From positions 1 through 35,106 of the forward strand of contig RFHA01000036.1 in the NCBI GenBank assembly GCA_003696565.1: 35,106 nt of DNA, written 5' to 3'. Numbering within the stretch: position 1 is the stretch's first letter; each line of letters begins with the position of its first letter. Below are positions 19,485 through 33,116 of the stretch, piece by piece. A program made the translations under genes and the position numbers. Below the pieces are notes generated by a model. That model was not told the DNA's origin. It did not search any database and saw only the letters and a list, made by a program, of their open reading frames with translations. This stretch comes from Chloroflexota bacterium (GTDB lineage Bacteria; Chloroflexota; Anaerolineae; Aggregatilineales; Phototrophicaceae).

Positions 19485-20576
19485 ATGGTTTCTTTTACAC
19501 CAACAGAAGATCAACAACTTTTAATTGAGACAATCCGCCGTTTTGCAGAAAATGACGTGCGTCCCACTGCGCATGAACACGATGAAGCCAGTGAGCCAAA
19601 CCCTGACGCGCTTAAAGTTGGCTGGCAAATGGGATTGATTCCATCCGCACTGCCAGAAGAACTTGGCGGCTTTGGAGAGATGAGTGCTGTAACAGGTGTG
19701 TTAGCCCTGGAAGAACTTGCTTTTGGTGAATTAGCCACCGCAATGCACTTGATGACTCCAGCCCTGTTTGCTTATCCTGTTACGTTATTTGGGACAGCAG
19801 AGCAGCGTGAAAATCTGCTACCGATGTTTTTGGAAGAAGATTTTGCCCCAGCAACTGCTGCCTTATTAGAACCTGGCATCAGTTTTGACCCCTACAGCCT
19901 CAAAACAACTGCATCTCCAACTGAGCAAGGCTTTGTATTAAACGGCATAAAGGCTTATGTTCCTCTGGCAGATTCTGCAACGCATATTTTGGTTTATGCT
20001 CGTAACACAGAAACTGGCAATCAAGAAGCGTTTATTGTCTCGCGAGATCAAGTTGAAATTGAACGCCGTGAAATGTTGATGGGTATACGCGCTTTACCGA
20101 CCTATCGCCTTAAATTGCATGATGTTACCGTTGCCCCAGATTCTCGTTTAGGGGGGGCTGTGGGCATTAATTATCAATTGATTTTGGATCGTTCTAACGT
20201 GGCGTTAGCGGCGTTAGCGGTTGGTGTGGCGCGTGCCGCTTATGAATATGCCAAAGAATATGCTAAACAACGTGTCCAATTTGGTAAGCCGATTGCACAA
20301 AATCAAGCAATTGCGTTTATGTTGGCAGAGATGGCAATTGAGGTTGATGCAACCCGCCTTATGGTATGGGAAGCCGCTTGGAAACTAGATCAAGGTGAAG
20401 ATGCCAGCAAGGACGCTTATTTAACACGTCAATATGCCAATAAGATGGTGCTGATGGTAACCGATAGCGGGGTACAAACGCTTGGCGGTTATGGGTTCAT
20501 CCGTGAATATCCAGCAGAACGTTGGCTACGGAATGGGCGTGGTTTTCCGACATTTGATGGTTTAGCAATTGTTTAA
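19485..20576 (+). CDS. Acyl-CoA dehydrogenase-like subunit lacking the usual catalytic Glu
   Basis: A 363-aa FAD flavoprotein of the acyl-CoA dehydrogenase fold: helical N-domain, beta domain, then C-domain with YAKQRVQFGKPIAQNQ near 263 and LGGYGFIREYPAERWLRNGR near 334. It ends early. Where the paired enzyme has YEG with the base glutamate, this one reads FDG with Asp358, and the helix position used by isovaleryl- and long-chain enzymes also holds Asp (LDRSN). It lies 4 nt after the SDR and 13 nt before a complete paralog. It may be the non-catalytic partner of a heteromeric acyl-CoA dehydrogenase, as in mycobacterial FadE28-FadE29-type pairs, or may use Asp. Confidence 0.88.
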   Translation: MVSFTPTEDQQLLIETIRRFAENDVRPTAHEHDEASEPNPDALKVGWQMGLIPSALPEELGGFGEMSAVTGVLALEELAFGELATAMHLMTPALFAYPVTLFGTAEQRENLLPMFLEEDFAPATAALLEPGISFDPYSLKTTASPTEQGFVLNGIKAYVPLADSATHILVYARNTETGNQEAFIVSRDQVEIERREMLMGIRALPTYRLKLHDVTVAPDSRLGGAVGINYQLILDRSNVALAALAVGVARAAYEYAKEYAKQRVQFGKPIAQNQAIAFMLAEMAIEVDATRLMVWEAAWKLDQGEDASKDAYLTRQYANKMVLMVTDSGVQTLGGYGFIREYPAERWLRNGRGFPTFDGLAIV

Positions 20577-20589
20577 GTGAGGTGTTGTG

Positions 20590-21864
20590 ATGGCAATTGA
20601 TTTCAAAATTCCAGAAGGTATTTTACAGACAAGACAGATGGTGCAATATATCGCAGAAACGACGATGCGCCCGTTTTCTCGTGAATTAGATGAGAATGAA
20701 CATCAACGTCCGACGGCGTTTGTTCAAGCGGTTTGGCCCATTCTCAGTGCACAACAGGCACAAGCATTGGCACGCATTGAACGCGAGCTTGAGTCTGGGG
20801 GAACCACCCCAGTTAAAGAGAAAACCAAAGAACGCATCAGCACTCACTATCTGAGCATGATGTATCTGGTAGAGATGCTCTCTTGGGGGGATGCTGGCAT
20901 TTATTTATGCTTACCTAGTGCGGCATTAGGCGGTTTTGCAATTGAAGCAGTGGGTACACCAGAACAAAAACTGCGCTTTTTACGTCGCTTTGCAGAAGGC
21001 GAGCCTTCTTGGGGGGCGATGGCGATGACCGAACCCAATGCCGGCTCAGATACATCTGCCATTCAAACGACCGCCGTGTTTGATGAAGAAACCCAAGAAT
21101 GGGTTTTAAATGGTGAAAAAATCTTTTGTACAAGTGGTGGTTTAGCCCTCAATGAAGGTGATGGCTTGGTAATGGTTTGGGCAACCGTGGATCGCAACGC
21201 TGGACGCAGCGGTATGAAATTATTTGTTGTGGAGGCTGGAACGCCTGGCGTGACGGTTGTCAAAGCGGAGAAAAAGCATGGTATACGGGCGAGTGATACT
21301 GTCGCAATTTCTTTTAATAACGCGCGCATCCCAGCCGATAACATTTTGGGTAGTCCAGAGGTCAAAGAAGGAAAAAGCGGTAAGGGCTTTAAAGGTGCAA
21401 TGGCAACCTTTGATGCCAGCCGTCCATTGGTCGCTGCTAGCGCGTTAGGAATTGGGCGTGCCGCTGTTGAATTTGTTAAAGAAAAATTGGCAGAAGAGGG
21501 CATTGAAATTCCCTATGGCGCGCCGTATCACAAGTTAACAGCAGTTCAGCGTGATGTTATGGAGATGGAAGCACAACTTAAAGCAGCACATTTGTTGACA
21601 TTGCGCTCAATTGCCATGTTAGATGAAAAAATCTCCAATCCGCTGGAGGCATCTATGGCGAAAGTAAAAGCAGGCAAAGCCATTACCTGGATTACACAAA
21701 AAGCCGTTGAATTATTAGGTCCATTAGGCTACAGCCGGGAAGTCTTGGTAGAAAAATGGATGCGGGATGGCAAAATTAATGATATTTATGAAGGTACCGG
21801 ACAGATCAATACACTGATTGTCGCCCGCCGTATTTTGGATTATACCCGAACGGAATTAGCATAA
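20590..21864 (+). CDS. Acyl-CoA dehydrogenase
   Basis: A 424-aa FAD enzyme that forms the 2,3-double bond of acyl-CoA and passes electrons to ETF. The flavin-binding segment is WGAMAMTEPNAGSDTSAIQTTA, the substrate-domain loop is NGEKIFCTSGG, and the catalytic glutamate is E401 in IYEGTGQINTLI. An extra segment of about 50 residues (near 40-85, charged and helical) lies between the first helix and the usual start of the domain. The ATG is used, with GAGGTG 5 nt upstream, rather than the GTG just before it. Electrons could go through ETF to the EtfD-like protein at 2414. Confidence 0.93.
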   Translation: MAIDFKIPEGILQTRQMVQYIAETTMRPFSRELDENEHQRPTAFVQAVWPILSAQQAQALARIERELESGGTTPVKEKTKERISTHYLSMMYLVEMLSWGDAGIYLCLPSAALGGFAIEAVGTPEQKLRFLRRFAEGEPSWGAMAMTEPNAGSDTSAIQTTAVFDEETQEWVLNGEKIFCTSGGLALNEGDGLVMVWATVDRNAGRSGMKLFVVEAGTPGVTVVKAEKKHGIRASDTVAISFNNARIPADNILGSPEVKEGKSGKGFKGAMATFDASRPLVAASALGIGRAAVEFVKEKLAEEGIEIPYGAPYHKLTAVQRDVMEMEAQLKAAHLLTLRSIAMLDEKISNPLEASMAKVKAGKAITWITQKAVELLGPLGYSREVLVEKWMRDGKINDIYEGTGQINTLIVARRILDYTRTELA

Positions 21865-21893
21865 ATTCGTTATCGACACATACTTAAATCATG

Positions 21894-21921
21894 TTGGTTC
21901 TACTAGCACGTTTGGTATAAT
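21894..21921 (+). promoter_or_regulatory. fadN promoter
   Basis: TTGGTT, a 16-nt spacer and TATAAT. The predicted leader is about 93 nt. The -10 merges into the TetR-like dyad at 21918-21939 in the same way as in the tetR promoter. Confidence 0.65.
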
Positions 21922-21939
21922 CAAACGGAAGTTAAATTA
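21918..21939. promoter_or_regulatory. Putative TetR operator, site 3 (fadN)
   Basis: TAATCAAAC at its left end is identical to the tetR site and stands at the same place relative to the -10. The right half is degenerate (ending AATTA for GATTA). Overall 17 of 22 positions match the tetR site. Part of the match is the -10 box itself, which lowers its weight. Confidence 0.45.
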
Positions 21940-21947
21940 AGATGTTT

Positions 21948-21984
21948 GTTGTTGGTTGTTTGTGAGGCGAATGAAACCAACAAC
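21948..21984 (+). promoter_or_regulatory. Stem-loop in the fadN leader
   Basis: GTTGTTGGTT and AACCAACAAC form a perfect 10-bp stem around a 17-nt loop. The loop carries GAGG and an ATG (21971) that opens a 26-codon frame ending at 22051, overlapping the fadN start out of frame. There is no T run, so this is not a terminator. An effect on fadN translation is possible. Confidence 0.5.
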
Positions 21985-22020
21985 TCAAATAAACTACGAA
22001 ATTAGAAAGGTGATAAAAAG

Positions 22021-24402
22021 ATGGTTTACGAAATCCGCAAGGCAGCCGTGATTGGCTCTGGAACAATGGGGGGCGGAATTGCGACACTGCTGGCTGGTGT
22101 TGGGGTGGAAACCCTGCTACTGGATATTCCTGCTCAGGGTACTCAACCAGGAGATCCCCCCGCTAAACGCAATCAAATTGTCTTGAACAACCTCAAGAAC
22201 TTAAAGAAAATGCGTCCGCCACAGCTATTTAGTGAATCCGTGATGGATTTAATCAGTGTCGGAAATATTGATGATGATCTTCACAAATTGGCTGAGGTTG
22301 ATTGGGTCATTGAAGTTGTCATTGAAAAATTAGACATCAAACAAAACCTTATGGCAAAGGTGGCAGAAGTTGTACGCCCAGACACCATTGTTTCTACCAA
22401 CACATCTGGTTTGCCCATCAATAAAATAGCTGAACATTTGGGGGAAGATTTTACACGCCGCTTTTTAGGAACACATTTCTTTAATCCGCCACGTTACTTG
22501 CATCTGTTGGAGGTGATTCCGCACGATAACACAGACCCGAACGTGGTGGAATTTATCGTCGATTTCGCCACACATAAACTTGGCAAAGGTGTTGTGATAG
22601 CCAAAGACAAGCCAAACTTCATCGGCAACCGTTTTATGTCAATGGTTGGGATGCAGGCGATGAATTACGCACTAGATCATGGATACACTGTAGAAGAAGT
22701 TGACGCGATTACAGGTCCATTGATTGGTCGCCCTAAAACCGCTACATTTAACTTGAATGACTTAGTTGGCTTTGATGTCGCTGTGTATGTAGCGCGCAAC
22801 CTGTATGATGCTATTCCTGATGACCCACAACGTGAAGTGTTGAACCACCCCCAAGCCAAAAAGATCGCAGATTACATGCTAGAAAACCAAATGCTGGGGC
22901 GCAAAACCGACAAAGGGTTCTATCAGATGCGCAAGGAAGGTGGCAAAAAAGAACTCTGGTCATTAGATTTGCAGACCATGGAATATGTCCCTCCAGCTAA
23001 TCCACAGTTTGATAGCGTTAATAAACACCGCAAGGTCAAGCCCACAGCAGAACGAATTCGCTTGATGTTGAATGAGGATGATCGTGCTGGGCAATATCTC
23101 TGGCATCATCATGCTTTTTATTTGGCGTATGCATCTAACCGTGTCCCAGAAATTACCGAGTCATTGGTAAACGTTGATAATGCTCAAAAATGGGGCTTTG
23201 GGCATGAACTAGGTCCATTTGAAATTTGGGACGCGCTTGGCGTAAAGGAAACCATTCCACAGTTTGAAGAAGCTGGTTATCCTGTTGCAGACTGGGTAAA
23301 AGAAATGGTTGCCAACGGTTATGAGACATTCTACAAGAAGAATGAAGCCGGTAAAGTAGTTGCTTATTATAGCCCACAAGTAAAAGACTATGTACCGCTG
23401 GAAAAACATCCATTAGAGATTACCGTTGCTGACCTCAAGGCAGATGGCAAAGAACTTGCTGGTAATGAGGATGGCTCAGTCTACGATCTTGGCGACGGTG
23501 TGCTACTTTGGGAATTCCACAGCAAGCAGAACACCATTACCGCTAAATTTGTGGAAATGGGGTGGAAAGCCCTAGACTTATTAAATGATGATGCGTATGT
23601 TGCTTTGGTTATCAGCAATGATGCAGAACGCTTCTCTATTGGTGCCAACTTAGCTGATGCCATGATGGGCGGCGTTGAGGGCATTGATGCCATGATTCGC
23701 GGGCTACAAGACCTAACGCAGGCTTTGCGCTATGCACCTAAACCCGTTGTAACAGCACCCTTTAACATGGCGTTAGGGGGCGGGGCAGAATTGATGATGT
23801 CTGGTACGGCGACTGTGGCTCATATGGAGCTTTATGCCGGCTTGGTTGAAGTAGGCGTTGGGTTAATCCCCGCTGGCGGTGGATGTAAGGAACTGGTGCG
23901 TCGCCTTGTCAATCCATTAGCAGAGCGTGCGGCATATGTGTTGCCAGGGATGCAAAAAGCGTTTGAAAATATTGCAACTGCCAAAGTGAGCGAAAGCGCG
24001 TTGATGGCGCGTGAAATGGGCTTCCTTGCGCCAGATGATAAAATCGTGATGAACCGCCGCTTCCTCATTGGCGAAGCAAAACAACATGCGCTTGGCTTAG
24101 CTAAAACATATATCCAGCGTAAGCCGGAGAAAGTTTGGGCTGCAGGTAAAGAAGTCTATGCTGCGTTATTACTAGCATTAGAGCAGTTCCGGGAAGGTGG
24201 TTATGCTACTGAATACGATGTCTTTATTGGCAAGAAATTGGCATATATCCTCACAGGAGGCGCATTAACAGAACCTCAATGGGTCGATCAACAGTTGATC
24301 CTGGACTTGGAACGTGAGGTATTCATGGAACTCATGATGCAAGAAAAAACACAAGAGCGTGTAATGTACATGCTCCAGAATAACAAGCCGTTGCGGAATT
24401 AA
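22021..24402 (+). CDS. fadN: 3-hydroxyacyl-CoA dehydrogenase / enoyl-CoA hydratase, FadN type
   Basis: A 793-aa two-activity beta-oxidation enzyme with the dehydrogenase first, as in Bacillus FadN. The NAD loop is GSGTMGGGIA near 12-21, the dehydrogenase catalytic His is in THFFNPPRYLHLLEVIP, and two C-terminal dehydrogenase domains follow to about 420. The hydratase/isomerase-like domain (about 490-680) keeps FSIGANLADAM, ALGGGAELMMSG and the acidic EVGVGLIPAGGG. AAAGGTG precedes the ATG. fadA follows 80 nt later, past a small GC hairpin near 24411-24427 without a T run, so both are probably on one transcript from the dyad-bearing promoter. Confidence 0.94.
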   Translation: MVYEIRKAAVIGSGTMGGGIATLLAGVGVETLLLDIPAQGTQPGDPPAKRNQIVLNNLKNLKKMRPPQLFSESVMDLISVGNIDDDLHKLAEVDWVIEVVIEKLDIKQNLMAKVAEVVRPDTIVSTNTSGLPINKIAEHLGEDFTRRFLGTHFFNPPRYLHLLEVIPHDNTDPNVVEFIVDFATHKLGKGVVIAKDKPNFIGNRFMSMVGMQAMNYALDHGYTVEEVDAITGPLIGRPKTATFNLNDLVGFDVAVYVARNLYDAIPDDPQREVLNHPQAKKIADYMLENQMLGRKTDKGFYQMRKEGGKKELWSLDLQTMEYVPPANPQFDSVNKHRKVKPTAERIRLMLNEDDRAGQYLWHHHAFYLAYASNRVPEITESLVNVDNAQKWGFGHELGPFEIWDALGVKETIPQFEEAGYPVADWVKEMVANGYETFYKKNEAGKVVAYYSPQVKDYVPLEKHPLEITVADLKADGKELAGNEDGSVYDLGDGVLLWEFHSKQNTITAKFVEMGWKALDLLNDDAYVALVISNDAERFSIGANLADAMMGGVEGIDAMIRGLQDLTQALRYAPKPVVTAPFNMALGGGAELMMSGTATVAHMELYAGLVEVGVGLIPAGGGCKELVRRLVNPLAERAAYVLPGMQKAFENIATAKVSESALMAREMGFLAPDDKIVMNRRFLIGEAKQHALGLAKTYIQRKPEKVWAAGKEVYAALLLALEQFREGGYATEYDVFIGKKLAYILTGGALTEPQWVDQQLILDLEREVFMELMMQEKTQERVMYMLQNNKPLRN

Positions 24403-24482
24403 GACAAGAGGGGGATTTTTCCCCTTCATATATTTATTGATCAAAAAGTGAAAATCAAGAAACAAAAATAGGAGATTTACTG

Positions 24483-25667
24483 ATGAGAGAAGCTGTTATT
24501 GTTGCTGGGTCAAGAACCGCCGTTGGTAAAGCAGTGCGTGGGTCAACGAAGAATGTACGCTCAGAAGACATGGCTGCAACGGTTATTCAAGATTTGCTTA
24601 AGCAAACAGAAGGTAAGCTAGACCCTAAGGAAATTGATGATGTGATCGTTGGATGCGCCATGACAGAAGGCTCACAAGGCATGAACTTTGGGCGTATCGT
24701 GGCTATGCGTGCTGGGCTACCGGTGGAAGTCCCTGCTCAAACTGTCAATCGTTTTTGTTCCAGTGGGCTGCAAACCATTGCCATTGCCGCGGAACGTATC
24801 ATTGCAAACGGGGCTGATATCATCATCGCCGGTGGGGCGGAAAGTATGTCGCTTGTCCCTATGACTGGACATCATCTTAGCCCAAATCCCTATTTAGCCG
24901 AACACAACCCAAACGTCTATATGGGAATGGGGCAAACGGCTGAGCGTGTCGCGGATGAGTTTAACATTTCCCGTGAGGATATGGATGAATTTGCTTATCA
25001 TAGCCATATGAAGGCTGCAGCTGCCCAGGATGCTGGTAAATTTGCTGAGGAAATTGTGCCCTTTGAATGGGAAGAAACCGTAATTGGCGAGGATGGGCAC
25101 CCAACTGTTAAAAAATTCGTGCTAGAGCAAGATGAGCATCTACGTCGAGAAACGACAATTGACGCACTTGCTAGTTTAAAGCCAGCTTTCCGTATGAATG
25201 GGCGGGTAACTCCAGGTAATTCCAGTCCGTTGAGTGATGGCGCGGCGGCTGTTATCGTCATGGAAGCCAAAAAAGCGCAGGAGCTTGGGTTAACACCCAT
25301 TATGCGCTTTGTTGGGTTTAATGTTGGTGGTGTTCGTCCTGAAATTATGGGGGTTGGTCCCATTGCAGCCATTCCTAAACTACTTAAGCGTACCGGCTTG
25401 AAACTCGATGATATTGATTTAATTGAACTCAACGAAGCCTTTGCCGCTCAATCATTGGCGGTGATGCGTGAGCTAGAAATGGACCCCGCGCGTGTCAATG
25501 TTAACGGTGGTGCTATCGCACTAGGGCATCCATTAGGCGCAACCGGGGCAAAATTGACCGTTCAGCTAATGCACGAAATGCGCCGCCAAAGCAGCAAGTA
25601 TGGCATGGTGACGATGTGTATAGGCGGTGGTATGGGTGCTGCTGGCATCTTTGAGTATCTAAATTAA
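24483..25667 (+). CDS. fadA: Acetyl-CoA C-acyltransferase (3-ketoacyl-CoA thiolase)
   Basis: A 394-aa thiolase that cleaves 3-ketoacyl-CoA with CoA, completing the beta-oxidation cycle. The nucleophilic Cys is C92 in NRFCSSGLQTIA, GGAESMS follows near 120, the His motif is in NGGAIALGHPLGATGAK near 340, and the second Cys lies in CIGGGMGAAG near the C-terminus. The ATG has AGGAG upstream. A strong terminator lies 15 nt after the stop. Confidence 0.96.
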   Translation: MREAVIVAGSRTAVGKAVRGSTKNVRSEDMAATVIQDLLKQTEGKLDPKEIDDVIVGCAMTEGSQGMNFGRIVAMRAGLPVEVPAQTVNRFCSSGLQTIAIAAERIIANGADIIIAGGAESMSLVPMTGHHLSPNPYLAEHNPNVYMGMGQTAERVADEFNISREDMDEFAYHSHMKAAAAQDAGKFAEEIVPFEWEETVIGEDGHPTVKKFVLEQDEHLRRETTIDALASLKPAFRMNGRVTPGNSSPLSDGAAAVIVMEAKKAQELGLTPIMRFVGFNVGGVRPEIMGVGPIAAIPKLLKRTGLKLDDIDLIELNEAFAAQSLAVMRELEMDPARVNVNGGAIALGHPLGATGAKLTVQLMHEMRRQSSKYGMVTMCIGGGMGAAGIFEYLN

Positions 25668-27421: not shown

Positions 27422-27973
27422 TTAACTGTTTAGTTCTTTCAAGTCAGTGGACATAATTAAGAGGTCGTGTGTGCGGTCATCCCGTGTTTTGATCCAATCC
27501 GCAAGGATAGCTGCTGGTTTAAAGTCTAAGTAGTCAACCATCCGCTGGGCGGCTTTGTCATCGGCTGCCATATGCACCATGACTTTTTCTAACCCCATAT
27601 CTTTTGCGAGTTGAGTTAACTCACGCGCGAGTTTTTGCCCTAAACCACGTCCACGATACGCACTACTCACCATGACACGCATTTCCGCAATATGACGATT
27701 CCAGAACAATTGATTGTAGTAAATTGTGCCGTATCCTATAATCTGATCGTTGTGTTCAATCAGCAATGTTTTAGCACGATCTGTCTCAATCTCATGAATC
27801 CAATCGTCAATGGCTTCTGGCTTTGTAATGTCACGCCGCATAAACCACAGATCAGCTTCATTCATTTTACTGGTAAAGCCGATCATACTATCACGGTCTT
27901 TGCGTTCCATAAAACGTAAGGTGAACTTTTCTCCACCAATGGTCATCTCTTTAGGATAATTTTTTTCTGCCAT
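27422..27973 (-). CDS. GNAT-family N-acetyltransferase
   Basis: A 183-aa acyl-CoA-dependent acetyltransferase. The GNAT core shows IGYGTIYYNQ, then HIAEMRVMVSSAYRGRGLGQKL near 96-117 with the acetyl-CoA pyrophosphate loop RGRGLGQKL, then GLEKVMVHMAADDKAA and RMVDYLDFKPAAI. The substrate is unknown. The short N-terminal extension MAEKNYPKEMTIGGEKFTLRF is family-like. GAGGA precedes the ATG. It lies 60 nt after the WS/DGAT gene, with a terminator-like hairpin between, so it may be read at a reduced level from that operon. Confidence 0.9.
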   Translation of the reverse strand: MAEKNYPKEMTIGGEKFTLRFMERKDRDSMIGFTSKMNEADLWFMRRDITKPEAIDDWIHEIETDRAKTLLIEHNDQIIGYGTIYYNQLFWNRHIAEMRVMVSSAYRGRGLGQKLARELTQLAKDMGLEKVMVHMAADDKAAQRMVDYLDFKPAAILADWIKTRDDRTHDLLIMSTDLKELNS

Positions 27974-28033: not shown

Positions 28034-30109
28034 CTATGTAATTTTTTGAGCGCATTTGATCAGTTCTTGCGCAGATTGTGTAAAAGGCATTAAGCGGGCA
28101 ATAGACCCTTTTTTGAGCTTCAACTTGCGGCGGATAATCATCGCAAGCGGTTGAGCTTCTCCACGTAGAACTTTCATCCAATTTTCATGATTGCCTTCTA
28201 ACACAAAAGCAGCTTCTCTATGAGCTTGATTAACTGTTAAGCTGCGGGCATCTCGGCATTTTCCTTTGTGTAAATCCAATAGAACGGCGGTTGCCTGTGG
28301 AAAACCATTTTCCGGGGATGCCTCCATAATCATCGCCAATGAACCAGCTGTCCACTTGGTCGATGCATCATAATAAGCTTGGCTGTTATTTAACTCTTCC
28401 ATATAGGCTTTTGCCCAGGCATCGGAAAATAGTTTGGGCTTGCCTGCTGGTACTTGCGCTTCAGACGAATTGACGGATATTTCTTCCTCTGTTTTTACAT
28501 GGATATCTGTATTAGTCTCATCATGATTGTTTGGCGTGGATTGCACGGCTTCCTCATTATCGTCAGCTACTTCAACTTGTATTTCTTCCACTACTGCTAC
28601 TGCCGTGTTGTTGCTGGCATCCCCTTTAGGTAGTTTAGTCATAACAGGTTGTTTGATAGCTGGTTTTTTGGGTTCGCGCTCAATGTCAAACGGTTCCATT
28701 GGCTGCACTTTTGCGGCAGTACGAAGTTCCTCAAAAGCGGTTTGTAAGTGCTTTTGCACCTGCCGTACATCTGGCACAATCGCCTTATCAGAAACAAGCG
28801 TCATGGAAATTCGCTGGTTATAGCTGACAATGACGCATGCCAAACCCATAGAGGGATTGAGTGGGAAGAAGCCATAATTTTTAAGCAGTTTATGTCCACG
28901 TAAATAAACTGGGATCATCGGACCAGCGACGTTTGTACACCAAGTATGTGCCAATAACTGAAATGCCATTGGTGCGGCACCCCAAATAAGCGGCTGTATA
29001 AAGGATGGCGCAAGTGAGGGGAGCGTTAGCAACATATCTAACCCAATTGACAAGGATGATTCTTTCATCACTTTAGTATACTCGGTGACGGCATCTAACC
29101 GCTCCAGTGGGTCTTTAACGCTAAACGGTATATCAACAGGCAATACAGAAATGCGGTTGCCAAAATCACCTTTTTCTTTTTCCATGCGCATACTCACTGG
29201 TACGAGTACACGGAAAAATTCCTGCATGTTGTCCGGTTCAACTTCTTCTACATAGCGTTCAATTGCACCTGTTAAAACCGTTAGCATCACATCGTTAATA
29301 GATGCGCCACGATTAGACTTAATTGCCCGCACCTCTGCTAATGAGAACTCTACCCAAGCCAGTTCTTGCATCCCACTGTTTTTGCCGTTAATGGGTAATT
29401 TTCGGATAGGGCGGAGGTTATCATTAATCAGGTTTGCCATACCGTATAATGTCTTACGACGATGTTCTTTATCCAATAAAACACTGCCCAACGTCGTAAG
29501 GTCATGACCAATCTTTTTAAGCACTTGCCATTTATGAGGAAGGTCTTGTTTGATGGAATCAAGAATTAAGTCTATTTGTTCCGGTATGGGCGGGGGATCA
29601 TAAAGCGGTTTCTTTTCTAATGGTGTAATGTCTGGCGTTAAATCAAACAACAACGTAAATAACTCAACAGCCGCTAAGCCATCCACCATACAGTGATGAA
29701 CTTTGAAGAAAAACGCTGTTCGGTCACCTTCTAACCCTTCAATCATGTGAATTTCCCATAATGGTTTGGACCGATTCAGCATGCTAGAGAGCAAATGACT
29801 AACCAAAACCCTAAGTTGCTCTTCTGTACCTGGGGGTTCTAGATATGTTTTGAAAACATGGTTTTCAATATGAAAATCTGGATCAAACACCCACATAGGC
29901 TGCCCCATTTTTAAGGGAGCTTGAACAACTTTCTGCTGATAGATTGGCGCACGATGGATACGGCTATCAACGACCTTCAGCACTTCCTTAAAGTCAATTT
30001 TTCCTTCAAAAATTGAGACCGCACCAATATTCATTGGAGAAGTGGGGGTCTCAACATATAAAAAAGCAGTATCAACGGGTCCTAGTATCCTAATATTTTT
30101 CTCGTCCAC
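28034..30109 (-). CDS. WS/DGAT wax-ester/diacylglycerol acyltransferase fused to an SCP2 domain
   Basis: A 691-aa protein. Residues of about 1-455 are a bacterial wax ester synthase/diacylglycerol acyltransferase that transfers acyl groups from acyl-CoA to fatty alcohols or diacylglycerol. The active-site motif HHCMVDG is at 138-144, and SINDVMLTVLTGA and NVAGP-type segments follow. An acidic low-complexity linker (about 470-555) joins a C-terminal domain (557-691) that reads like a sterol-carrier/SCP2 lipid-binding protein: LLDLHKGKCRDAR, NWMKVLRGEAQPLAMIIRRKLKLKKG, AQELIKCA. The family is usually about 450-500 aa without this domain. The GTG start has GAGGAA just upstream. The gene starts 15 nt after the patatin gene, in one operon. 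Confidence 0.9.
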   Translation of the reverse strand: MDEKNIRILGPVDTAFLYVETPTSPMNIGAVSIFEGKIDFKEVLKVVDSRIHRAPIYQQKVVQAPLKMGQPMWVFDPDFHIENHVFKTYLEPPGTEEQLRVLVSHLLSSMLNRSKPLWEIHMIEGLEGDRTAFFFKVHHCMVDGLAAVELFTLLFDLTPDITPLEKKPLYDPPPIPEQIDLILDSIKQDLPHKWQVLKKIGHDLTTLGSVLLDKEHRRKTLYGMANLINDNLRPIRKLPINGKNSGMQELAWVEFSLAEVRAIKSNRGASINDVMLTVLTGAIERYVEEVEPDNMQEFFRVLVPVSMRMEKEKGDFGNRISVLPVDIPFSVKDPLERLDAVTEYTKVMKESSLSIGLDMLLTLPSLAPSFIQPLIWGAAPMAFQLLAHTWCTNVAGPMIPVYLRGHKLLKNYGFFPLNPSMGLACVIVSYNQRISMTLVSDKAIVPDVRQVQKHLQTAFEELRTAAKVQPMEPFDIEREPKKPAIKQPVMTKLPKGDASNNTAVAVVEEIQVEVADDNEEAVQSTPNNHDETNTDIHVKTEEEISVNSSEAQVPAGKPKLFSDAWAKAYMEELNNSQAYYDASTKWTAGSLAMIMEASPENGFPQATAVLLDLHKGKCRDARSLTVNQAHREAAFVLEGNHENWMKVLRGEAQPLAMIIRRKLKLKKGSIARLMPFTQSAQELIKCAQKIT

Positions 30110-30124
30110 GACTTCCTCTTTCCG

Positions 30125-31168
30125 CTATAGTTTGACTTCGTTCATAACCTTTAATGCGGCGCGCTCTCCGCTTTTAATAATTTTACGCTGAATTTCTGGG
30201 CTGAAGGAAAACTCTGGCGCAAGGAAAAAATCGATATCATCTTCTTCTGGCTGAATCCAAATGATTTTTTTGTTGAGTTTTTGCTCGTCATAAAACTCAC
30301 GCCAGCGATTGATGCGTTCGTTAAACATGGTAATGGTGGATTGCCGCAGCACATTCAACCACCCCATATCTCGCACGGAATGACCATTTTGTGAATGCAA
30401 TGGTTGATAGGTGTGGGAGATGATGATCTTATCTGCTAAGCTCACCCCGATATCTGCCGATAAGGTGCGCTTGATTTCACCATCAACATAATACTTCCCT
30501 TTAATCAGTACTGGCTCAAACATACCAGGTACCGCACTGGATGCTCTAACCGCTTTGTGAATTGGTACGTCCGTCATAAAATGATCTTCTTCGGTTTCAA
30601 AGTCATACAACCCATTAAATACGGCGCGTGTACGATAATCCAACGCTGTACCAGTAATATACAAATCAATTTCCATATCTGCAAAATCTGCTGATGGTAA
30701 TAGTGATTTGAATAAATTTTCAATTGCAGTTGAATCAAAAAAACTCGTAATTTGTTGACTATGGATTAAACGATCAATGGCTTCTGCTAAAATATCACGA
30801 TTAATCAGCCAGGGGAGGGACGCAATAAACTTTAAGCTAGAAACGCCCATTGTTAAGGTTTGGCGAGTTAGTTGGCGGTATCTTGGGCGAAACAACATGT
30901 TAGAAGTTAGCGTTCTAATCCACCGATCAAATTTAGGAACATAAACTTTTTTTTGATAAAGTGCTGTAATTAATGTATCAACACTAGCACCAGAAGCCAC
31001 AAATGCGCCCACCACAGAGCCGGCACTTGTTCCTACAATAGATGTGATATTTTCTGGTTGTAATGCTTTTAAAACACCCAGATGAAAATAAAATGCTTTA
31101 GTTGCACCACCACTTAAAACTAAGGCAGTACCTGGTTTTTTTTGTAAATACGGTATTTCTTCAACCAT
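30125..31168 (-). CDS. Patatin-like phospholipase/acyl-hydrolase
   Basis: A 347-aa serine lipid hydrolase of the patatin family, without a signal peptide. The oxyanion glycine loop is LVLSGGATKAFYFHLGVL near 17-34, the nucleophile elbow GTSAGS (GxSxG) is near 46-51, and the dyad Asp lies in YYVDGEIKR (the family D-G-G/A motif, here DGE). The frame is open 40 codons further upstream, but that stretch holds the promoter and operator. GGAG 7 nt before this ATG decides the start. It is first in an operon with WS/DGAT, so it may release acyl chains from lipid while its partner stores them. Confidence 0.9.
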   Translation of the reverse strand: MVEEIPYLQKKPGTALVLSGGATKAFYFHLGVLKALQPENITSIVGTSAGSVVGAFVASGASVDTLITALYQKKVYVPKFDRWIRTLTSNMLFRPRYRQLTRQTLTMGVSSLKFIASLPWLINRDILAEAIDRLIHSQQITSFFDSTAIENLFKSLLPSADFADMEIDLYITGTALDYRTRAVFNGLYDFETEEDHFMTDVPIHKAVRASSAVPGMFEPVLIKGKYYVDGEIKRTLSADIGVSLADKIIISHTYQPLHSQNGHSVRDMGWLNVLRQSTITMFNERINRWREFYDEQKLNKKIIWIQPEEDDIDFFLAPEFSFSPEIQRKIIKSGERAALKVMNEVKL

Positions 31169-31211
31169 TGAGATGCTCCAAATCGAAAGCCATGATGTGA
31201 TTTTAACACAT

Positions 31212-31220
31212 ATTATACCA
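31212..31220 (-). promoter_or_regulatory. Extended -10 promoter of the patatin-WS/DGAT operon
   Basis: On the minus strand TGGTATAAT forms an extended -10, about 44 nt upstream of the patatin start. The -35 region is occupied by a dyad (CGAATC-GT-GATTCG) instead of a consensus hexamer. Confidence 0.6.
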
Positions 31221-31221
31221 G

Positions 31222-31243
31222 TAATCGAATCGTGATTCGTTTT
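31222..31243. promoter_or_regulatory. Putative TetR operator, site 5 (patatin-WS/DGAT operon)
   Basis: Read on the minus strand it ends GATTCGATTA, identical over ten bases to the phasin-gene site, and matches that site at 15 of 22 positions overall. It contains the perfect dyad CGAATC-GT-GATTCG (31226-31239) across the -35 region. Confidence 0.45.
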
Positions 31244-31272
31244 TTTTATTTGTAAAAATGCTAGCTTGATAG

Positions 31273-31301
31273 TGGACGTTTTGACCATTTCACAGTAAAA
31301 T
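31273..31301 (+). promoter_or_regulatory. Candidate promoter of the CocE-type gene
   Basis: TGGACG, a 17-nt spacer and TAAAAT. The -35 matches four of six consensus bases. The predicted leader of about 80 nt includes the hairpin at 31342-31375. Confidence 0.4.
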
Positions 31302-31388: not shown

Positions 31389-33116
31389 ATGGATTGTGCG
31401 ATGAAACAAGTCAGGAATCCTGTACTATTTTTAGGGTTATTATTCCTGATCGCTTATCGATTTCGTCGATGGATCATCGCTCGTATCCTCAGGCTCCCTA
31501 ACCCAACCACAAATGTCAGTGTAAAAACTGGCTTACACATTCCAATGCAGGATGGCATCAAATTAGCAGCAGACCATTATATGCCATCATCTCCTGGAAC
31601 ATACCCAACTGTTTTAATTCGCTCACCTTATGGACGCAATGCTGATGCCAGTGTGTTTGGTTGGCTATTAGCCTTTATGGCGCAGCGTTTTGCTGAACGT
31701 GGTTATCACGTTTTAGTACAAGATGTGCGTGGACGGTTTGATTCCGAGGGGGAATTTGTTCCGTATTTTAATGAAAAACAAGATGGCTTAGATACATTAG
31801 CATGGCTAGAACAACAACCCTGGTTTAATGGTGATGTTGCTACCTGGGGGTCAAGCTATTTGGGCATTGTTCAGTGGGTCATTGCCGGTGATTCGCCTTC
31901 AATTAAAGCGATTGTTCCGGTGATTACCGGCTCCAATCTGCGTGAGATTCTCTATCCAGATGGCGCGTTTGATTTGGGTCTGGCAATGCGATGGTTATCC
32001 GTTTTTCATTATCTGGATGATTATCGTACCCGTCCATTGTTGTTTGCTTTGCGTATGTGGTCACAGATTGAACGCGGTATTCAACCCGCTTTTGAACATT
32101 TGCCAATAGGTGAGAGCGATGCGTTAGCCTTAGGCGAACCAGTTGCATTTTATCGCTTTTGGCTGGAACATGCTGATGAAAATGATGAAATTTGGCAGCA
32201 AGCAATGCGCGATATTGACGTTTCACGAGTTGATAAACCTGCCCATTTAATTGGGGGGTGGTATGATTTTTTCTTGCGGGCGTTACTTAAAGATTATGAA
32301 ACATTGCGTGCCAATGGGCATCAACCATACTTAACTATTGGTCCCTGGCATCATTTCAACGCTATGGTCAGTTGGGTTGATCTTCGAGAAGGGATTACAT
32401 GGTTTGATGCACACTTAAAGGGTGATGTCTCTCGGTTAAGACAAAAACCCGTACGATTATATGTGATGGGGATTAACCAGTGGCGTGATTATGACGAATT
32501 CCCACCCAAAGCGACACCCACACCACTTTATTTACGAGAAGCCAATGGATTATCACTACACCCTTGTGATTTGTCTGAATCATATGATACATACCGTTAT
32601 GATCCAACGAACCCCACACCAAGCGTTGGCGGAACAGTGTTTAGCCCCTGGGCTGGCGGTGCGCATGATAATCGTCGTTTAGAAGCGCGGGACGATGTGT
32701 TGATCTTCACCACGCAGCCATTATTACAACCAATTGAGATTATTGGACGAGTGACGCTACAACTCTATGTGCGCTCATCCTTGCAATATACCGATTTCTT
32801 TGGGCGTGTGTGTGATGTAGACCCATCTGGGCGTTCAACTAATGTATGCGATGGGTTGGTGCGAATCATACCAGGGAAGGGTGAACCACAACCTGATGGC
32901 ACATTGTGTGTTGAAATTGACCTGTGGGCAACAGCCTATCACTTCAAAAAAGGGCATGCTATACGGTTACAAGTTTCTAGTGGGGCACATCCACGTTGGA
33001 GCCGTAATCCTGGTACTGGTGAACCCATTGCAACTGCCAAAACCTGTAAACCGGCAGATCAAACGATCTATCATGATCAATCACATCCCTCAGCTGTGAT
33101 CCTCCCCATTATTTAA
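31389..33116 (+). CDS. CocE/NonD-family (S15-like) serine hydrolase, membrane anchored
   Basis: The 575-aa protein has one N-terminal hydrophobic segment (about 11-24), then an alpha/beta-hydrolase domain of the CocE/X-prolyl-dipeptidyl-peptidase family. The nucleophile is probably S156 in GSSYLG, the acid Asp is in GGWYDFFLRALL and the His is in GPWHHFNA. A C-terminal jelly-roll domain (about 345-570, with VTLQLYVRSS and LRLQVSSGAHPRW-like segments) completes the family pattern. Members cleave esters or amides, and the substrate is unknown. An in-frame ATG four codons later is an equally possible start, and neither has a strong ribosome site. Confidence 0.88.
   Translation: MDCAMKQVRNPVLFLGLLFLIAYRFRRWIIARILRLPNPTTNVSVKTGLHIPMQDGIKLAADHYMPSSPGTYPTVLIRSPYGRNADASVFGWLLAFMAQRFAERGYHVLVQDVRGRFDSEGEFVPYFNEKQDGLDTLAWLEQQPWFNGDVATWGSSYLGIVQWVIAGDSPSIKAIVPVITGSNLREILYPDGAFDLGLAMRWLSVFHYLDDYRTRPLLFALRMWSQIERGIQPAFEHLPIGESDALALGEPVAFYRFWLEHADENDEIWQQAMRDIDVSRVDKPAHLIGGWYDFFLRALLKDYETLRANGHQPYLTIGPWHHFNAMVSWVDLREGITWFDAHLKGDVSRLRQKPVRLYVMGINQWRDYDEFPPKATPTPLYLREANGLSLHPCDLSESYDTYRYDPTNPTPSVGGTVFSPWAGGAHDNRRLEARDDVLIFTTQPLLQPIEIIGRVTLQLYVRSSLQYTDFFGRVCDVDPSGRSTNVCDGLVRIIPGKGEPQPDGTLCVEIDLWATAYHFKKGHAIRLQVSSGAHPRWSRNPGTGEPIATAKTCKPADQTIYHDQSHPSAVILPII

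Follow-up and report, generated by a model that had tools for sequence, protein, structure and literature searches.

We found that the window (the whole stretch of Chloroflexota DNA analysed here, 35,106 nucleotides) encodes a 691-aa protein that joins a WS/DGAT-type acyltransferase to a C-terminal SCP2 domain. A sequence-only reading had proposed this fusion; both domains were identified, and they lie in the same frame in 13 further MAGs. Its gene, on the minus strand, begins with GTG at 30109 and has its stop at 28034 (691 codons); the span 28034–30109 given by that reading was correct, and the strand, which it had not given, is minus. A good ribosome-binding site, AAGAGGAAG (AAAGAGGAAG over 30112–30121, minus strand), precedes the GTG start. 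Neither an Rfam scan nor a tRNA scan of the window gave a match.

The sequence-only reading had taken the architecture to be undescribed, which did not hold: Galvan et al. 2023 report that some WS/DGATs of Bacteroidota (Polaribacter, Muricauda, Dokdonia and others), about 613 aa in length and next to an AGPAT/hydrolase gene, end in a PF02036 domain (PMC10351704); we found no functional test of them there. Those proteins share with the Chloroflexota fusions the order WS/DGAT then SCP2 and a longer-than-usual chain, but the Chloroflexota proteins are 664–796 aa long, with a long linker and a patatin gene upstream. For the Chloroflexota lineage of fusions, the patatin linkage and a counterpart in trans, a divergent SCP2 gene beside a WS/DGAT gene, we found no description in the open-licence papers searched.

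The two domains and their linker

Residues 9–462 make up a complete WS/DGAT. The WS_DGAT_cat domain (PF03007, residues 9–275, positions 29285–30085, minus strand, E 2.2e-53) scored 182.2 bits against a curated cut-off of 23.6, the WS_DGAT_C domain (PF06974, residues 317–462, positions 28724–29161, minus strand, E 3.5e-25) scored 89.2 bits against 20.7, and TIGR02946 was also above its cut-off (345.1 vs 309.95 bits). The sequence HHCMVDG was found where the earlier reading had placed it, at residues 138–144 (29678–29698, minus strand); it is the HHxxxDG active-site motif and was invariant in 14/14 fusion proteins. The best PDB matches by sequence were the WS/DGAT of Marinobacter aquaeolei (6chj, 9e-39) and AbWSD1 of Acinetobacter baylyi (7nxg, 9e-34), and the same two were the top Foldseek matches by fold (TM normalised to target 0.76–0.79). 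The likeness extends across the N-terminal 465 residues in sequence, fold and HHxxxDG motif, but both enzymes end after about 455–463 residues and carry no SCP2. The N-terminal part is a WS/DGAT-type O-acyltransferase, for which wax ester or triacylglycerol synthesis is predicted, and its gene was the sole PF03007 match found in the source genome (94% complete).

The C-terminal domain (residues 557–691, positions 28037–28441, minus strand) was borderline in the Pfam search: PF02036 scored 20.0 bits on the whole protein, below the cut-off of 21.3, and exceeded that cut-off on the isolated domain (23.9 bits) and in the genome search (23.8 bits). A chance Pfam match was ruled out by matches to Thermus SCP2 in sequence and fold. 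A phmmer search of the PDB with residues 555–691 recovered Thermus TT1886/SCP2 (1wfr, 2cx7) at E 1e-32, a profile built from 17 relatives reached it at 2e-43, and identity to TT1886 of Thermus thermophilus (2cx7, 1wfr) was 44–46%. Modelled alone from 35 sequences (pLDDT 94), the domain matched 2cx7 with a Z of 24.2 and an rmsd of 1.2 over 130 residues (Foldseek TM 0.90/0.95). The next fold matches, at Z 8–10, were other SCP2s, including the mosquito protein 1pz4 bound to a C16 fatty acid and the human MFE-2 domain 1ikt with its ligand. Because the PDB sequence matches and the fold matches of the model to 2cx7 agree, we assign residues 557–691 to the Thermus-type SCP2 domains, with predicted lipid or acyl-CoA binding, in line with the SCP2 similarity suggested earlier. 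The Thermus protein has the same full-length fold but is stand-alone; no paper on its function (TTHA1886) was found in the open-licence literature. As to the short motifs cited in support of SCP2, KGKCRDA (at 615) and AQELIKCA (at 680) were present, and KLKLKKG was present at 662 but in a single copy, not repeated.

The linker between the two domains (residues 471–556, positions 28442–28699, minus strand) is acidic, as had been noted (19 D/E vs 7 K/R), and is predicted to be disordered, with pLDDT mostly below 50. In the model of the whole protein (pTM 0.60) the linker was likewise disordered and the domain interface was not resolved.

Other enzymes of lipid metabolism or acyl transfer that carry an SCP2-like domain are the peroxisomal proteins SCPx (PMC4762939) and MFE-2, the alkylsulfatases SdsA1/Pisa1 and the Eis acetyltransferases; SdsA1, Pisa1, MFE-2 and Eis were among the fold matches of the C-terminal domain. 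In all of these the catalytic partner is a different one, and their SCP2-like domains are about 8–14% identical to the domain described here.

Distribution and phylogeny of the fusion

Scanning genome contigs and searching 61 related genomes, we recovered the fused open frame in 13 other Chloroflexi/Anaerolineae MAGs from separate assemblies. A further homologue (L013) is cut by the contig end, and each WS/DGAT match in the 61 related genomes was either fused or broken off at a contig end. Mean pairwise identity among the fusions was 58% for the acyltransferase, 57% for SCP2 and 20% for the linker, which changes fast, varies from 57 to 183 aa and has many A, P and E residues. Since both domains are complete and equally conserved next to such a linker, both are under selection.

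The phylogenetic spread of the fusion, which the sequence-only reading had proposed to follow, covers 14 Anaerolineae/Chloroflexi loci in a single acyltransferase clade: when 61 Chloroflexota WS/DGAT domains were placed in one tree, those of the 14 fusions grouped together with a support of 100, on a long branch (1.34). The tree of SCP2 domains joined the fused ones to three stand-alone SCP2s from that family (100/98; L024, L025 and L031), so a later split-off or copying of the domain is possible. These three may be the source of the fusion or copies split off from it; one genome (G025) holds both the fused and the stand-alone form.

Other long WS/DGAT frames of the phylum (560–705 aa) had no in-frame SCP2 match at the loci examined, and their extra length is therefore an unused upstream frame or another extension. 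Long frames around two SCP2 matches (L052 and L057) did not match the WS/DGAT profile; at L057 the stretch ahead of SCP2 reads as a low-complexity translation. No relative was found on viral contigs. Among the matches listed for plasmids there were WS/DGATs only, and no record had one place covering 80% of the query.

Gene neighbourhood and separate SCP2 genes

A patatin-like lipase gene lies 15 bp upstream of the fusion gene (30125–31288, minus strand), and the two genes likely share an operon. Its product carries the nucleophile motif GTSAG from residue 86 and the DG of the dyad (VDGE) from residue 268. A patatin-type gene was found directly upstream and on the same strand in 14/14 fusion loci (the window and 13 others), as well as at the truncated locus L013; near non-fused WS/DGATs a homologue was found at 1/46 loci (1.5–2.5 kb flanks), as a weak match on the opposite strand. 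Downstream of the fusion lies a GNAT acetyltransferase gene (27422–27973, minus strand); six of the 13 related loci with a fusion also have a homologue of it, and a related GNAT also lies close to two non-fused WS/DGAT loci of another family (L108 and L109). Two further features of the window concern the wider surroundings. A CocE/NonD-type S15 hydrolase gene (31389–33116, plus strand) is divergent from the patatin-WS/DGAT pair, with homologues also close to the fusion at L006, L007, L009, L010, L011 and L013. A beta-oxidation cluster (19485–25667, plus strand) lies a few kb away from the lipid synthase gene and comprises two acyl-CoA dehydrogenases, a Staphylococcus FadB-type HAD/ECH fusion and a thiolase.

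At 8 loci of a different Chloroflexota family, f79 (L079, L080, L090, L092, L093, L095, L097 and L098), a separate and divergent SCP2 gene of the stand-alone Thermus type adjoins one WS/DGAT paralogue. The WS/DGAT tree took in 7 of these 8 loci, without the one whose frame is interrupted, and placed their WS/DGATs in a clade separate from the fusions; the f79 SCP2s formed a clade of their own in the SCP2 tree. The sole member of that WS/DGAT clade without an SCP2 gene, L094, begins at a contig end. This suggests, without proving it, that Chloroflexota combined WS/DGAT with SCP2 on two occasions. At least two of the f79 loci (L093 and L098) have a MOSC-domain gene between SCP2 and WS/DGAT, and because of this companion the association with WS/DGAT could be fortuitous.

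Within the class, SCP2 of the Thermus type often occurs as a stand-alone protein; the profile matched in 218 of 396 genomes, fused ones included. Some of the sampled stand-alone genes adjoin an acyl-CoA synthetase gene and, in one case, patatin. In Anaerolineae, stand-alone SCP2 genes also adjoin an Fe-alcohol dehydrogenase gene at 5 loci (L040, L042, L043, L049 and L055) and an aldehyde:ferredoxin oxidoreductase gene at 2 loci (L041 and L048), hinting at a role with long-chain alcohols or aldehydes.

Possible roles of the tethered SCP2 domain

The most plausible role of SCP2, to which we give about even chances and which is close to the one proposed by the sequence-only reading, is that of a carrier on a tether: it would pass acyl-CoA or a lipid acceptor to the acyltransferase, and patatin would provide the acyl chains. 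The hydrophobic pocket of SCP2 would hold acyl-CoA or an acceptor of low solubility (diacylglycerol or a fatty alcohol), and the tethered domain would present this cargo to the His-His-x3-Asp-Gly active site, raising the local substrate concentration at the surface of a membrane or inclusion. As a lipase, patatin would free acyl chains from the lipids of the membrane or the store, and these would be activated to acyl-CoA and re-esterified into triacylglycerol or wax ester. Several observations argue for such a carrier: the equal conservation of the two domains around a linker that is not conserved, the fold match of the C-terminal domain to 2cx7 and, less closely, to the lipid-binding SCP2s 1pz4 and 1ikt, and the patatin gene upstream of every fusion locus, L013 included, against one of 46 non-fused loci. 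The separate SCP2 gene beside a WS/DGAT of a different clade at the 8 f79 loci points the same way, as do the stand-alone SCP2s next to acyl-CoA synthetase, Fe-alcohol dehydrogenase, aldehyde:ferredoxin oxidoreductase or patatin genes. An analogous pairing is reported for Burkholderiales/Betaproteobacteria, where an acyl-CoA-binding-protein gene adjoins WS/DGAT (PMC10351704). Against a carrier we counted the domain interface that the model did not resolve (pTM 0.60), the lack of a described function for Thermus SCP2 in open-licence papers, the MOSC gene that accompanies f79 SCP2 genes and the failure to identify a clear fatty-acyl reductase: the matches of the PF07993 search were generic, and the same search was positive in 14/14 control genomes.

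It is doubtful that the fusion in Chloroflexota has an origin separate from that in Bacteroidota and forms with patatin a self-contained unit for remodelling membrane into storage lipid, in which SCP2 would hand patatin-cut acyl chains directly to WS/DGAT. The conserved pair of patatin and WS/DGAT-SCP2 genes suggests that some Chloroflexota may turn membrane lipid into storage lipid. More generally, the fusion bears on how bacterial WS/DGATs, whose substrates are very insoluble, obtain acyl-CoA and acceptor. With a natural enzyme-carrier fusion and a trans version in a neighbouring family, substrate delivery becomes testable by removal of the carrier, and the fusion offers a model for engineering the production of wax esters or fat.

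Somewhat improbable, in our judgement, is that SCP2 leaves substrate delivery unaffected and instead binds a membrane or inclusion surface, holding the enzyme there, or moves the finished neutral lipid into the inclusion. A flexible tether of 57–183 aa would suit targeting and delivery equally, but the SCP2 fold is near-identical to that of the soluble Thermus protein and a domain serving only as an anchor should have diverged further, a point that is not decisive.

We think it unlikely that the enzyme makes no storage lipid and acylates another acceptor carried by SCP2, such as an unusual alcohol, a polar lipid or a secondary metabolite. The long branch of the fused clade among Chloroflexota WS/DGATs and the search for a fatty-acyl reductase, which identified no clear one, would fit this, as would AzeD and the NRPS condensation domains, which have the same broad fold and a different chemistry. 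It is opposed by the TIGR02946 score above the cut-off (345 vs 310 bits), by the invariant catalytic motif, by the Marinobacter and Acinetobacter wax synthases as nearest solved folds, and by the presence of a PAP2 phosphatase family member. Finally, an assembly or frameshift artefact joining two genes, which the sequence-only reading had itself raised, has a negligible probability, as we found nothing in its favour and the same frame runs uninterrupted through the separately assembled fusions of 13 other MAGs.
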